NCBI RefSeq assembly: GCF_000230715.2
Contig: NC_019792.1
Span: 2,356,001 to 2,420,000 of the forward strand
Direction: 5' to 3'
Origin: Natronobacterium gregoryi SP2
GTDB lineage: Archaea; Halobacteriota; Halobacteria; Halobacteriales; Natrialbaceae
DNA: 64,000 bases
Shown: piece after piece, positions 21,954 through 25,556 of the stretch
How positions within the stretch are numbered: position 1 is the stretch's first letter
Layout of the letters: every line of letters starts with the position of its first letter
Notes under the pieces: model-generated
Databases searched by the model: none
Told to the model about the DNA's origin: nothing
The model's input: the letters and a program-made list of their open reading frames with translations, nothing else
Position numbers and translations under genes: made by a program

Positions 21954-22370
21954 TTATACCCAGAACCCGGCCTTTTTCAGCGCCGTGATCGTCAGTTCGT
22001 TTTCGACCGTCTCGAGCAGGTCGTCCGCCCGCACGACGCCGGCGATGTCCGAGTCTTCGGTTACCGGCAACGCAGGGAATCCTCGTTCGGAGATGGTGTC
22101 CACTGCAGCAGCTATCGGCGTGTCGGTCGACACTGTCTGAATATCGGTCGTCATGATCTTCTCGACGGCGGCTGTTCGATCGGCATTCAGGAGGTCGGTG
22201 AGCGAGACGATCCCGATGAGGTCGCCACCGTCGACGACGTAGAGGTAGTACAGCGTCGTCCCGTCGGTTGGCGTTCGGTCGCGGAAGCGGTCGATTGCTT
22301 CGTCGACCGTGGTCGTGGGCGGGGCGGTCTGGAACTCGTCGGAGACGAGGCCGGTGAGTGTGTTGGGCAT
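21954..22370 (-). CDS. CBS-domain protein of the Mg transport operon
   Basis: A 138-residue protein with two CBS motifs: TTTVDEAIDRFRDR...GGDLIGIVSLTDLL, then VSTDTPIAAAVDTISERG...DIAGVVRADDLL. In bacterial MgtE, CBS domains fused to the membrane domain sense Mg2+ and gate the channel. Here the regulator is a separate polypeptide, encoded 2 bp after the membrane-protein stop. The C-terminal ENELTITALKKAGFW may dock on the transporter; that is inference. Confidence 0.85.
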   Translation of the reverse strand: MPNTLTGLVSDEFQTAPPTTTVDEAIDRFRDRTPTDGTTLYYLYVVDGGDLIGIVSLTDLLNADRTAAVEKIMTTDIQTVSTDTPIAAAVDTISERGFPALPVTEDSDIAGVVRADDLLETVENELTITALKKAGFWV

Positions 22371-22372
22371 CG

Positions 22373-23077
22373 TTATATCGCCCCTGGAAGCAGCCAGATC
22401 GCCAGGCCAAAGTAGATGACCACGGCGGTGATGTCTTTGAACGTCGTCACCACGGGGTCTGAAACCGCAGCAGGGTCAAACCCAAGTTTGTGTGCGAGCC
22501 AGGGGATGAGATAACCGAACGTGCTGGCAACCAGACAGACTGTCACGAGGGCGGTAAACAGTACGAGTGACAGCATTGGCTCGCCGTGCCAGACCATCGC
22601 GATGCCAGCCGCGATGGTGCCGATGATGAGTCCGATAACGAGACCGAGAACGGACTCGCGAGCAAGGTGGGTCAAGACGTTCTTGTCGTCGATGTGCCCG
22701 AGCGCGAGCCCGCGGACGAAAATCGTCGACGCTTGCGTCCCGACGTTGCCGCCCATGTCCATGATTACTGGAACGAAAATGGCGAGCAACGCGATTTCGG
22801 CTGCTTCCAGTGACCCTTCGGCACCCCCGATTACGCCACCGGCGAGGAGCCCACCAGCCAGTGCAACCAGCAGCCACGGCAGGCGGAGCCAGAGCTTCTT
22901 CGGCAGTGACGAGGTGAGAACGATGTCGCTGCGAGTTGTCTCCGCGTCCGCGACGTCTCGACTGCGAACGACGGTCCCGCCGCCTGTGACGGTTTCGGCT
23001 CCACCGTCAGCACGTAGCGCTGTGGCGTCGTGCTCCATCTGACTCTGGGACTGTTCGGCGGACGTTTCAGCAGTCAT
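22373..23077 (-). CDS. mgtE: MgtE/SLC41-type magnesium transporter membrane protein
   Basis: A 234-residue membrane protein consisting only of an MgtE transmembrane domain. The first 50 residues are hydrophilic. About five hydrophobic segments follow, with the signature VIMDMGGNVGTQASTIFVRG. Because a single copy has only five helices, it presumably works as a dimer. The ATG at 23077 lies inside the last codons of a 47-codon leader ORF (23067-23210), which points to translational coupling or regulation. A CBS protein follows. Confidence 0.9.
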   Translation of the reverse strand: MTAETSAEQSQSQMEHDATALRADGGAETVTGGGTVVRSRDVADAETTRSDIVLTSSLPKKLWLRLPWLLVALAGGLLAGGVIGGAEGSLEAAEIALLAIFVPVIMDMGGNVGTQASTIFVRGLALGHIDDKNVLTHLARESVLGLVIGLIIGTIAAGIAMVWHGEPMLSLVLFTALVTVCLVASTFGYLIPWLAHKLGFDPAAVSDPVVTTFKDITAVVIYFGLAIWLLPGAI

Positions 23078-23210
23078 AGTGTTCCTCCTGTGCTGGCGAG
23101 AAGACGCCGGCGAAGGCACTGTCGAGCAGGCTTCGAACCTGTTCTTCGAGCGTCGGCACGGTTGCGTTCGCTGCACTACTCGGCTGCGTGTGGTGAGTTG
23201 GGTTCCACAT
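23067..23210 (-). CDS. 47-codon leader ORF overlapping the mgtE start
   Basis: It starts ATG (MWNPTHHTQP) 27 bp downstream of a good TATA box, so the mRNA should begin at or next to this codon and the ORF should be translated first. It ends with TGA at 23069-23067, eleven bases inside mgtE. The mgtE ATG is read here in another frame. The conserved core LEEQVRSLLDSAFAGVF is matched by LEGRVRNLLDGGLVGVF in a second ORF at 23522-23683. Differences are mostly conservative and in frame, so coding selection is likely. Function is unknown; it may be a leader peptide that tunes mgtE translation. Confidence 0.65.
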   Translation of the reverse strand: MWNPTHHTQPSSAANATVPTLEEQVRSLLDSAFAGVFSPAQEEHYDC

Positions 23211-23231
23211 ACAATCGGCTATGCAGGCCCC

Positions 23232-23242
23232 TATAACTTAAA
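23232..23242 (-). promoter_or_regulatory. TATA box of the leader ORF-mgtE operon
   Basis: On the minus strand the sequence reads TTTAAGTTATA. It is centred 27 bp upstream of the leader ORF ATG (23210) and preceded by an AT-rich stretch. This is the geometry of a leaderless haloarchaeal promoter, so mgtE itself would have a leader of about 130 bases filled by the small ORF. Confidence 0.6.
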
Positions 23243-23521
23243 TTCACCAAAAATAATAATGGAATAAAAACACAGAGAAGGGGCTACGAGACGGACGCGG
23301 GGTCCATCGGGGCAGACGCGAGACAGCGCTACCGCTCAGCGTGCGTCCACGCCAGTAGCGAGCGGGCCGCGTGACTCTTTGAAATCCCTGTTTCCGCTCA
23401 CAGACGGCGGGAATAGCAGTCGCTGACGAGGGCGGATACGTCGCTTAGGAGGCATAGATACTCCTAAAGCGGTGTATCCGCGGTGGCAGCAGTCGAAAGC
23501 GGCTCGGTGACGACGACCTGT

Positions 23522-23683
23522 CTAGAGCGTCGGACGTTCTCCATATCGGTTCCTCCGTTCGAACTCACAGAAGACGCCGACGAGACCGCCGTCGAGCAGG
23601 TTCCGGACGCGCCCTTCCAAGGGTCGACCGCTCGGTCCAACCGTACGAACAGTTCGATTACCAGGAGGCTGAGTACAGTACAT
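23522..23683 (-). CDS. Second, diverged copy of the mgtE leader ORF
   Basis: A 53-codon frame with ATG at 23683 whose middle (LEGRVRNLLDGGLVGVF) aligns without gaps to the leader ORF of mgtE. As in that locus, a second ATG (23543, preceded by CGGAGGAACCGAT) overlaps its end in another frame, but the frame it opens (MENVRRSRQVVVTEPL...) stops after 26 codons. This looks like the 5' end of a former second transporter gene whose body was deleted. The intervening 23243-23521 shows no gene. Confidence 0.45.
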   Translation of the reverse strand: MYCTQPPGNRTVRTVGPSGRPLEGRVRNLLDGGLVGVFCEFERRNRYGERPTL

Positions 23684-23737
23684 GCGGATATTACGGATCA
23701 GTTTTTACTGTTTCAATGTTCGGTATAAGATATTATT

Positions 23738-23883
23738 ATGTGTCCAACTACCAAGTCGGATCGCGGCGACACGGCCCCAGTGTCGCTGTTTGGAGTCCAT
23801 CGAACACTGGAGCGGACGACGCCGTGATCGACGACGAGATACTCGCGACGGTTGCTGACATAGACAGTCGAGACACGGACTAG
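23738..23883 (+). other. Possible short-gene remnant
   Basis: An ATG at 23738 preceded by TATAAGATATTATT opens a 29-codon frame (MCPTTKSDRGDTAPVS...). A shift of frame would continue it as DDEILATVADIDSRDTD, ending TAG at 23881-23883, exactly where a MITE begins. It may be debris of a small gene truncated by that MITE. Function is unknown. Confidence 0.2.
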
Positions 23884-23988
23884 TACCATCCCAAGCGTGG
23901 ACCGACTAGTTGAGAGTTGGCCCAAACCAATCACGATTCTCGATCAGGAGTAAAGCGCACTAGTCAGAGTAGACTTGGGACGGTACTA
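23881..23988 (-). mobile_element. MITE, long type (CTAG-bounded family), copy 1
   Basis: A 108-bp element with inverted ends TAGTACCATCCCAAGC and CTTGGGACGGTACTA. Its reverse complement is over 90% identical by eye to the middle MITE of the array at 33725-33834, including the internal GTTTGGGCCAACTCTC segment. It encodes nothing. The following 23989-24311 has no gene; around 24069-24102 is a half-copy (ACTGACTGACAGGAACCCG) of the dispersed palindromic repeat. Confidence 0.75.
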
Positions 23989-24311
23989 TATTCGTCTGCG
24001 AACTAGTCTCTATCGCCGGTACGGACGGCCGTACCGATCCCCCAGTGCAACCGCCTCAGATCTCGAGTGGGACAAAACTGACTGACAGGAACCCGTCTGG
24101 GACCGCGCTCGCGTTGCCGTTCTCGAAGTGTCGGCGACGGCTGTGCCCGCGACCTCGAGTCACGCGCGGTCGTCGCGTCGATCCGTGAACGTGCATCGGC
24201 GACGCTTGCGACTGGTTCTCGAGCGTGTTCCCGGCGGTGACGGTCATCGACGGGCGACCGCCGCAGACTGGTGTTCGGTTTCGACGACCGTAATCGAGAC
24301 GCCTCGGTCGG

Positions 24312-24734
24312 CTACTCGTCGCCCGGCAGGGCGATCACGGGAATCTCCGCTCGCGTCACGAGTTTCAGGGAGAGATCACCGGAGAGAAACTGCAAGAGCC
24401 GGTTGCCGCCGCGGGACTGGTAGGCGATGGCAGTCGCGTCGATCTCGTCGGCACTCTCGAAAATCGCGTCGACGACGTGCCGAGAGTAAGCGGTGTGTTC
24501 GTCGGCGTCGGGGAAGACCTCTTGGACGGCCGCGTACGACTCCGCTGCCATTTCTTCGGACTGTTCGACGGGCGTCTTGTCCGGGACGCCACCGCCTTTT
24601 TCGACGACGTGTAACGCTGTGACGTGGTCAGGATCGTACGAGGTGAGTGCACGTGCGGTCGCTCCGGCGTCCTCGGGATGGGCAATTGGGACGATCACGT
24701 GATCGAGCAAATCGCTGTCGCGTGGCTGGTCCAT
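24312..24734 (-). CDS. Universal stress protein (UspA family)
   Basis: A 140-residue single-domain UspA protein: DLLDHVIVPIAHPEDAGA at the start, VTALHVVEKGG, and a C-terminal AIAYQSRGGNRLLQFLSG followed by EIPVIALP. The classical ATP-binding Gx2Gx9GS loop is altered to SRGGNRLLQFLSGDLS, so nucleotide binding is uncertain. It is transcribed alone. The upstream 24735-24917 has no gene. Confidence 0.88.
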   Translation of the reverse strand: MDQPRDSDLLDHVIVPIAHPEDAGATARALTSYDPDHVTALHVVEKGGGVPDKTPVEQSEEMAAESYAAVQEVFPDADEHTAYSRHVVDAIFESADEIDATAIAYQSRGGNRLLQFLSGDLSLKLVTRAEIPVIALPGDE

Positions 24735-24917
24735 ACCGGTACAAAACGAATCTGCGATATAAGAGTTTGCGCTCGAGTTGGCGTGTGTCTCACACTCCTG
24801 CAGGTCGTTCAGACCACTCGATACGGAGGCGAGACGTCGCCACAGCAGACCGGACGAGCCCTTCGCTGCGATCGGGGGCAGTCGACGTGTTGCCGAGATA
24901 CCGGCAGGGACGGCGTC

Positions 24918-25556
24918 TCACGAGAAGAGAAACAGTCCGAGCAGAAAGGCTAACGCGACGTACGAGATGCGGTGGGCGAGGACGGCCCGAGAAGGCAGTA
25001 GCTTCCCTTTTTTCGTCCAGTTGACGAGCGTCTTCGACAACATGACGGGTTTGAACAGGTCACGTCGCCGCACTGGTTTACAGACCTCGAGAAGGTCGTC
25101 TATCCAGTCGGCGAACGGCTCGATCCGGGCGTCGTCGGGACCGTCGCCTTCGACGTACGCACTCAATTCGAGGTTCTGTTCGAACGCGACCTGCGTGAGA
25201 TTCGCGGAGCCGACGACGACGGCGGGATGTTCGCCGGTCCGGACGTACAGTTTCGCGTGGAGAAAGCCGTCGGGGTACTTGTACAGGTGGACCTGCTCGC
25301 CGCTATCGAGTTGCCAGAGGTCGCGAGCGATCGTCGCGGAGAACTGGTCTGCCGTCGGGCCGACGACGATCACCAGTTCGTTTTCGGTGGAGCGCGAGAG
25401 AAACGCCTCGATGTCTGGGCGAAGCGTGTGATACGCGTTGTAGGTGAAGAAGCCGGTGACGAGGTAGATCGTTCCGTCTCCCTCGAACAGCGTCCGGAGC
25501 TGTTCGTCGACGGTCCGATCTCCCCACCGGTTGTTGACGAGTTCGATATCAGCCAT
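24918..25556 (-). CDS. Phospholipase D-like protein with C-terminal membrane anchor
   Basis: A 212-residue protein with one PLD-type HKD half-site. HAKLYVRTG with VVVGSANLTQ (about 118-140) provides the His, Lys and Asn/Ser residues. The N-terminal VDEQLRTLFEGDGTIYLVTGF strand pattern fits the same fold. Single-motif PLD proteins dimerise and cut phosphodiesters in DNA or lipid. A hydrophobic helix at the very end (VALAFLLGLFLF) would fix it to the membrane. The start was placed at MADIELVNN (25556), where the PLD-like fold begins. Confidence 0.8.
   Translation of the reverse strand: MADIELVNNRWGDRTVDEQLRTLFEGDGTIYLVTGFFTYNAYHTLRPDIEAFLSRSTENELVIVVGPTADQFSATIARDLWQLDSGEQVHLYKYPDGFLHAKLYVRTGEHPAVVVGSANLTQVAFEQNLELSAYVEGDGPDDARIEPFADWIDDLLEVCKPVRRRDLFKPVMLSKTLVNWTKKGKLLPSRAVLAHRISYVALAFLLGLFLFS

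Follow-up and report, generated by a model that had tools for sequence, protein, structure and literature searches.

A conserved leader ORF that overlaps mgtE in haloarchaea and is probably coupled to it in translation

Why would a gene that could itself be leaderless retain a leader of 40-60 codons? This is the situation of mgtE in seven haloarchaeal families, and in one of the seven, selection acts on the leader at the level of the peptide. We analyzed the leader in a stretch of 64,000 nucleotides from Natronobacterium gregoryi SP2 (contig NC_019792.1; hereafter, the window) and in its relatives. The original prediction for this locus was that the leader peptide, or the act of translating it, matters for expression of the transporter.

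The leader ORF and its junction with mgtE

These features make up the locus:

23067..23210, minus strand: ORF1, the leader ORF, 47 amino acids and a stop codon, MWNPTHHTQPSSAANATVPTLEEQVRSLLDSAFAGVFSPAQEEHYDC
23084..23088, minus strand: GGAGG, a Shine-Dalgarno motif for mgtE inside the leader's codons (from the sequence)
22373..23077, minus strand: mgtE membrane-domain gene, class d, 234 amino acids (Pfam MgtE, 3.4e-36)
21954..22370, minus strand: separate CBS-domain gene for the cytosolic portion of MgtE, which is split (CBS, 1.3e-22)

The 47-codon ORF had been predicted to end 11 bases inside mgtE, and the coordinates agree: the ATG of mgtE, at 23077, lies within the last codons of ORF1, and the overlap is exactly 11 nt. 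Termination-reinitiation calls for a start codon near the upstream stop and for a Shine-Dalgarno motif within the upstream gene, and we found both. The overlap is 11 nt for all 6 class-d leaders, exactly 14 nt for 33 of the 35 class-b leaders of the Natrialbaceae, and 4-20 nt outside the family. A Shine-Dalgarno motif is present in 34/35 class-b leaders and 6/6 class-d leaders (GGAGG in all six of the latter).

MgtE in the window (21954-23077, minus strand) is split and its order is inverted, with the membrane domain first and the CBS domains encoded by a separate gene downstream. The CBS gene corresponds to positions 136-256 of the mgtE model.

Spread of the leader and selection on the peptide

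Single-sequence searches identified close homologues of ORF1 (77% and 74%) in two genomes, and weaker matches stand before full-length mgtE genes that encode both CBS and membrane domains. (Weak single-sequence matches in other families were mostly due to chance, and several were antisense to a stress-protein gene.) An HMM built from six leaders, including ORF1, which matches it at 5.8e-29, identified the leader in 36 of 125 genomes and 13 of 29 genera of Natrialbaceae, with E values down to 1e-30. Among the relatives that have it are Natronococcus, Natrialba, Natrarchaeobius and Natronorubrum. The window's own genome contains a second copy of the leader, before a full-length mgtE. The consensus of the leader is MLDTNHSS...ERGRTLEELVLDLLEGEFAGVIRSHxRGEVYGGC, followed by the stop codon, and its conserved core is TLEELVLDLLEGEFAGV.

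At the second locus (G000:C1:1210290-1212871), the class-b mgtE and its leader are divergent to two small MgtE-like membrane genes in tandem, and the two units use one common intergenic region; G232 is similar.

The prediction could have failed if orthologous mgtE genes had no equivalent ORF upstream. We counted the CBS+membrane mgtE genes (class b1) at E below 1e-170 in 392 genomes of the order, which gave 29 copies and another that is truncated by the end of a contig. A leader ORF precedes all 30 of them, and every overlap is 4-20 nt. Six of the 30 copies are outside the Natrialbaceae (G016, G010, G015, G148, G013 and G389). The peptides of these six are largely diverged, yet the ORFs begin at the promoter and end 4-20 nt inside mgtE. 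In dinucleotide shuffles, the product of the chances that the six ORFs reach the mgtE start is 3.6e-5. This value serves as a guide rather than an exact probability, because the start of the leader is a premise of the null and the lineages are related by descent. In G389, where the ATG of mgtE is further downstream, the leader still has the tail RSHSRGEVYGG, a sign of common descent. At mgtE genes of classes b2 and c (L113-L127), the HMM did not match anything, annotated plasmids gave no hit, and a comparable leader was not seen for the related MgtE of Methanosalsum and bacterial MAGs.

Within the Natrialbaceae, the leader's frame is conserved as a coding sequence. When 19 disjoint pairs are pooled, dN/dS is 0.24 with Jukes-Cantor correction (0.28 uncorrected), while the other two frames of the same pairs have pN/pS of 1.5 and 1.9; these figures come from pairwise counts. 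Substitutions are strongly uneven over codon positions, and there is purifying selection in frame, as expected for a uORF that encodes a functional peptide. The expectation that the peptide or its translation matters was borne out to this extent. The same comparison bears on the proposal that the true MgtE starts upstream, as a protein of 267 amino acids, and that the leader is an accidental ORF in a different frame from an N-terminal extension. The mgtE frame indeed extends without a stop codon to a GTG at 23176, but with pN/pS of 1.5-1.9 neither of the other frames is conserved as protein. Also, all class-b and class-d genes of the Natrialbaceae have an ATG at a fixed place, nearly always with a Shine-Dalgarno motif. 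We consider an N-terminal extension of MgtE to be highly improbable.

Two genomes of one genus (G100 and G312) have lost the CBS-mgtE, and their leader is followed by a mini-ORF that ends at or adjoins the start of a pair of class-a transporter genes. The N-terminal part of these leaders has diverged, while the last 36 codons have 8 synonymous and 2 conservative changes, and therefore the core is selected as a peptide. By contrast, in L088, L101 and L102 the core has decayed while the frame, the tail and mgtE remain, which makes the sequence of the peptide dispensable in some lineages.

Three leaders from the genus of G100 and G312 lie before the class-a pair via a mini-ORF (L209, L210 and L211), and for two of them this mini-ORF overlaps the start of the first transporter by ATGA.

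The predicted structure of the leader is a single helix (residues 21-32), with pLDDT of about 90 for residues 21-30. The leader had no match above the cut-off in Pfam or NCBIfam, and it appears to be an undescribed family of microproteins with a clear context. The best match in PDB, TNFAIP3-interacting protein 2 (E = 0.0059 over 25 residues), was judged not to be meaningful. We also rejected the idea that the leader is a split-off N domain of MgtE (hhalign probability of 0.15% against the N-domains of long haloarchaeal MgtE).

These results bear on two rival views of the leader. If it were a uORF that just delivers ribosomes, then the act of translation would matter and the peptide would not. 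Such a use of short uORFs has been proposed before (PMC12548453), and it would account for the six genomes outside the family and the leaders with decayed cores, where frame and overlap are kept despite diverged peptides. We think it unlikely, given the dN/dS over the 19 pairs and a core that was kept through changes of the N-terminus, the promoter and the transporter. The other view is that the leader is a small protein that partners with or modulates the transporter in trans, with the overlap merely setting the stoichiometry. This would fit with the predicted helix and its conservation at the amino-acid level, with the retention of the core when the type of transporter changed (G100/G312), and with the 8-fold enrichment of heteromeric complexes among overlapping gene pairs of H. 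volcanii (PMC10666635). But the downstream transporters differ (a CBS+TM fusion, TM alone, or a class-a TM pair), outside the family the ORF is kept with an unrecognizable core, and the three leaders with decayed cores have intact mgtE. A trans-acting partner is perhaps one chance in three, and we regard it as a tentative alternative.

Promoter, proposed mechanism and known systems

Two features lie around the start of the leader:

23237..23245, minus strand: TATA-like element GAATTTAAG of a leaderless-type promoter, about 27-35 nt before the ATG of the leader
23189..23209, minus strand: candidate 5' hairpin, UGUGG-11 nt-CCACA, which pairs the U and G of the leader's start codon

Leaderless transcripts have their core promoter some 25-30 nt before the ATG, and the leaders have a TATA-like element at a near-fixed distance. 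An ATTTAA box is at about the same place in all 6 class-d units, about 27-35 nt before the ATG, which is what the predicted leaderless start of ORF1 implies. Class-b promoters are also of leaderless type, and their TATA box is overlain by a TTAG-N6-CTAA dyad whose position hardly varies (about -29 to -15; 27/35 exact, 33/35 relaxed). The class-d promoter in the window has the ATTTAA box without the dyad. The class-b dyad resembles TTTTAGG-N4-CCTAA sites, several of which precede genes for ABC transporters or solute-binding proteins that resemble iron uptake in the same genomes. We infer that the class-b leader promoters are controlled by a metal-dependent repressor of the DtxR type.

More broadly, TTTTAG-N6-CTAA sites, which are mostly TTTTAGG-N4-CCTAA, number 5-14 per genome, versus 1-5 in a reversed control (G000, G203, G117, G184 and G122), and they likely form a DtxR-type regulon.

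In H. volcanii, Shine-Dalgarno motifs are not used for initiation in 5'-UTRs (PMC3986360), but overlapping genes are coupled: in 13 of 14 tested cases from H. volcanii and E. coli, the overlapping pairs were strictly coupled (PMC6728339), and a spacing of about 20 nt nearly abolished coupling (PMC10666635). Because Haloferax behaves in this way, translation of mgtE very probably depends on translation of the leader. (These experiments were done in Haloferax and not in Natrialbaceae.) Judging from the promoter, transcription would begin at the leader ATG or no more than a few bases from it, and ORF1 would very probably be the sole entry point for ribosomes on the leader-mgtE-CBS transcript. Ribosomes would initiate at the leaderless ATG, read 47 codons, stop once they are 11 nt into mgtE, and reinitiate at its ATG, aided by the GGAGG in the leader's last codons. 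On a transcript that begins with the leader ATG, ribosomes would get to mgtE mainly through reinitiation, which would tie the output of transporter to translation of the leader. We are fairly confident that this coupling is obligatory.

Since selection acts on the helical core as well as on the open frame, the peptide probably has a role of its own. It might act on the ribosome in cis or on the transporter in trans, as a nascent peptide, a small regulatory peptide, or a partner that is made together with the transporter. Whether the leader regulates mgtE beyond delivering ribosomes we would call about even. Overall, our preferred explanation combines leader-dependent translation of mgtE by termination-reinitiation, a peptide with its own role, and a second leader (ORF2, described below) that was orphaned; we think that this explanation as a whole is probably correct.

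The hairpin is a candidate control element, which may set how often ribosomes enter the leader. Most leaders can form a stem within their first 22 nt (UGCUG/CAGCA in class b, UGUGG/CCACA in the window, and UGUUG/CGACA in two leaders), and over 34 leaders, 92.9% of cells are paired. Three of the pairs have double-sided changes, which number 13 versus 3.3 in shuffles, although relatedness inflates such counts. The stem is missing from four leaders of the family (L084, L087, L094 and L102) and from ORF2. Alternatively, the sequence could be a dyad that binds a protein as DNA. A more ambitious version is that the hairpin is a metal- or magnesium-responsive gate that, at high levels of the ion, shuts off synthesis of the leader and hence of the transporter, and that the nascent core tunes termination-reinitiation. 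Such a gate would amount to a translational switch in archaea that senses an ion and works without a 5'-UTR, and we consider it improbable.

We found no RNA fold that hides the Shine-Dalgarno motif or ATG of mgtE: there was no excess stability (mean MFE z-score of -0.07) and no consistent sequestering. Global-fold analysis did not reveal alternative structures coupled to translation of the leader, as in attenuators of the Salmonella mgtA/mgtCBR type. Nor did window positions 22000-25000 match the M-box (ykoK) or any other Rfam family at E up to 1. As for the predicted translation-coupled leader control, the coupling is supported, while control beyond obligatory coupling is more tentative, as we found no structure that sequesters the mgtE start.

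The closest parallel is with the coupled overlapping pairs of haloarchaea (PMC6728339, PMC10666635), which also have an overlap of stop and start, an intragenic Shine-Dalgarno motif and a short distance. Those pairs are dominated by overlaps of 4, 1 or 8 nt, with 11 or 14 nt being rarer (PMC10666635), while here the overlap is 11 or 14 nt and the upstream gene is a tiny leader that is the first cistron. In Salmonella, the transcripts for the magnesium transporter genes mgtA and mgtCBR (PMC6460261, PMC3641672) likewise have short leader ORFs whose translation is tied to expression. Those leaders act via attenuator structures and proline codons, and we found neither such a structure nor a run of prolines; also, unlike them, the haloarchaeal leader overlaps the start of the gene and appears to have a leaderless start itself. 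M. tuberculosis rv1805A, upstream of pe20 (PMC12810186), is likewise a conserved small uORF in a magnesium-related operon with a homologue outside of that context, but it lies under an Mbox riboswitch, while the window has no Rfam match. Finally, the uORFs that Haloferax volcanii has in long 5'-UTRs (PMC4983044) are also haloarchaeal ORFs upstream of genes of normal size. They encode 15-31 amino acids, have no comparable analysis of conservation, and mgtE is absent from the 16. Translational control via structured leaders is considered untypical of haloarchaea (PMC4983044). In the literature that we searched, no archaeal metal transporter is described as having a conserved leader peptide that is coupled to it in translation. 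The leader itself is real, and the view of it as a translation-coupled MgtE leader peptide that is conserved in haloarchaea is largely supported. The system permits a direct test of gene regulation by short leader ORFs in archaea.

A second leader without a transporter

Upstream of ORF1 are three related features:

23522..23683, minus strand: ORF2, a diverged paralogue of the leader, 53 amino acids, conserved in six genomes
23464..23544, minus strand: ORF3, a mini-ORF of 26 amino acids that overlaps the end of ORF2 by 23 nt
23552..23556, minus strand: GGAGG, a Shine-Dalgarno motif before ORF3 (from the alignment; AGAGG in two relatives)

As predicted, ORF2 (LLDGGLVGVF) aligns without gaps to ORF1 (LLDSAFAGVF) over LLDxxxxGVF, with 31 of 40 bases identical. 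The two had been taken as independent copies. Their homology stands and their independence does not: they are paralogues of one family, and the orthologues are stronger evidence. Homologues of ORF2 are found in six genomes from three genera, 473 nt upstream of ORF1 in the window and 479-517 nt upstream in the other five, and pN/pS is 0.42-0.55 in informative pairs.

ORF2 runs 23 nt past a second ATG (at 23544), and the ORF behind that ATG has 26 amino acids and no MgtE body. The mini-ORF is present with a 23-nt overlap in 6/6 genomes (26-32 amino acids). With pN/pS of about 0.75-1.04, ORF3 is under little or no constraint. The tail of the G010 leader (NRYGER), which crosses the start of its mgtE, resembles the tail of ORF2 and the ATG that follows. 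The claim that the body of the transporter is gone after ORF2 fits both with this likeness and with the lack of constraint on ORF3. Most likely, ORF2 was the leader of a transporter that was lost, in parallel to G094, G100 and G312, and ORF3 is likely a residue of the start of that transporter.

The spacer between ORF3 and ORF1 is nearly constant in length (252-253 nt in six genomes), with about 70-89% identity in the compared pairs. Within the window, positions 23290-23308 (minus strand) contain a small dyad, GGAC-5 nt-GTCC, whose stem pairing is kept through changes in most of the six genomes.
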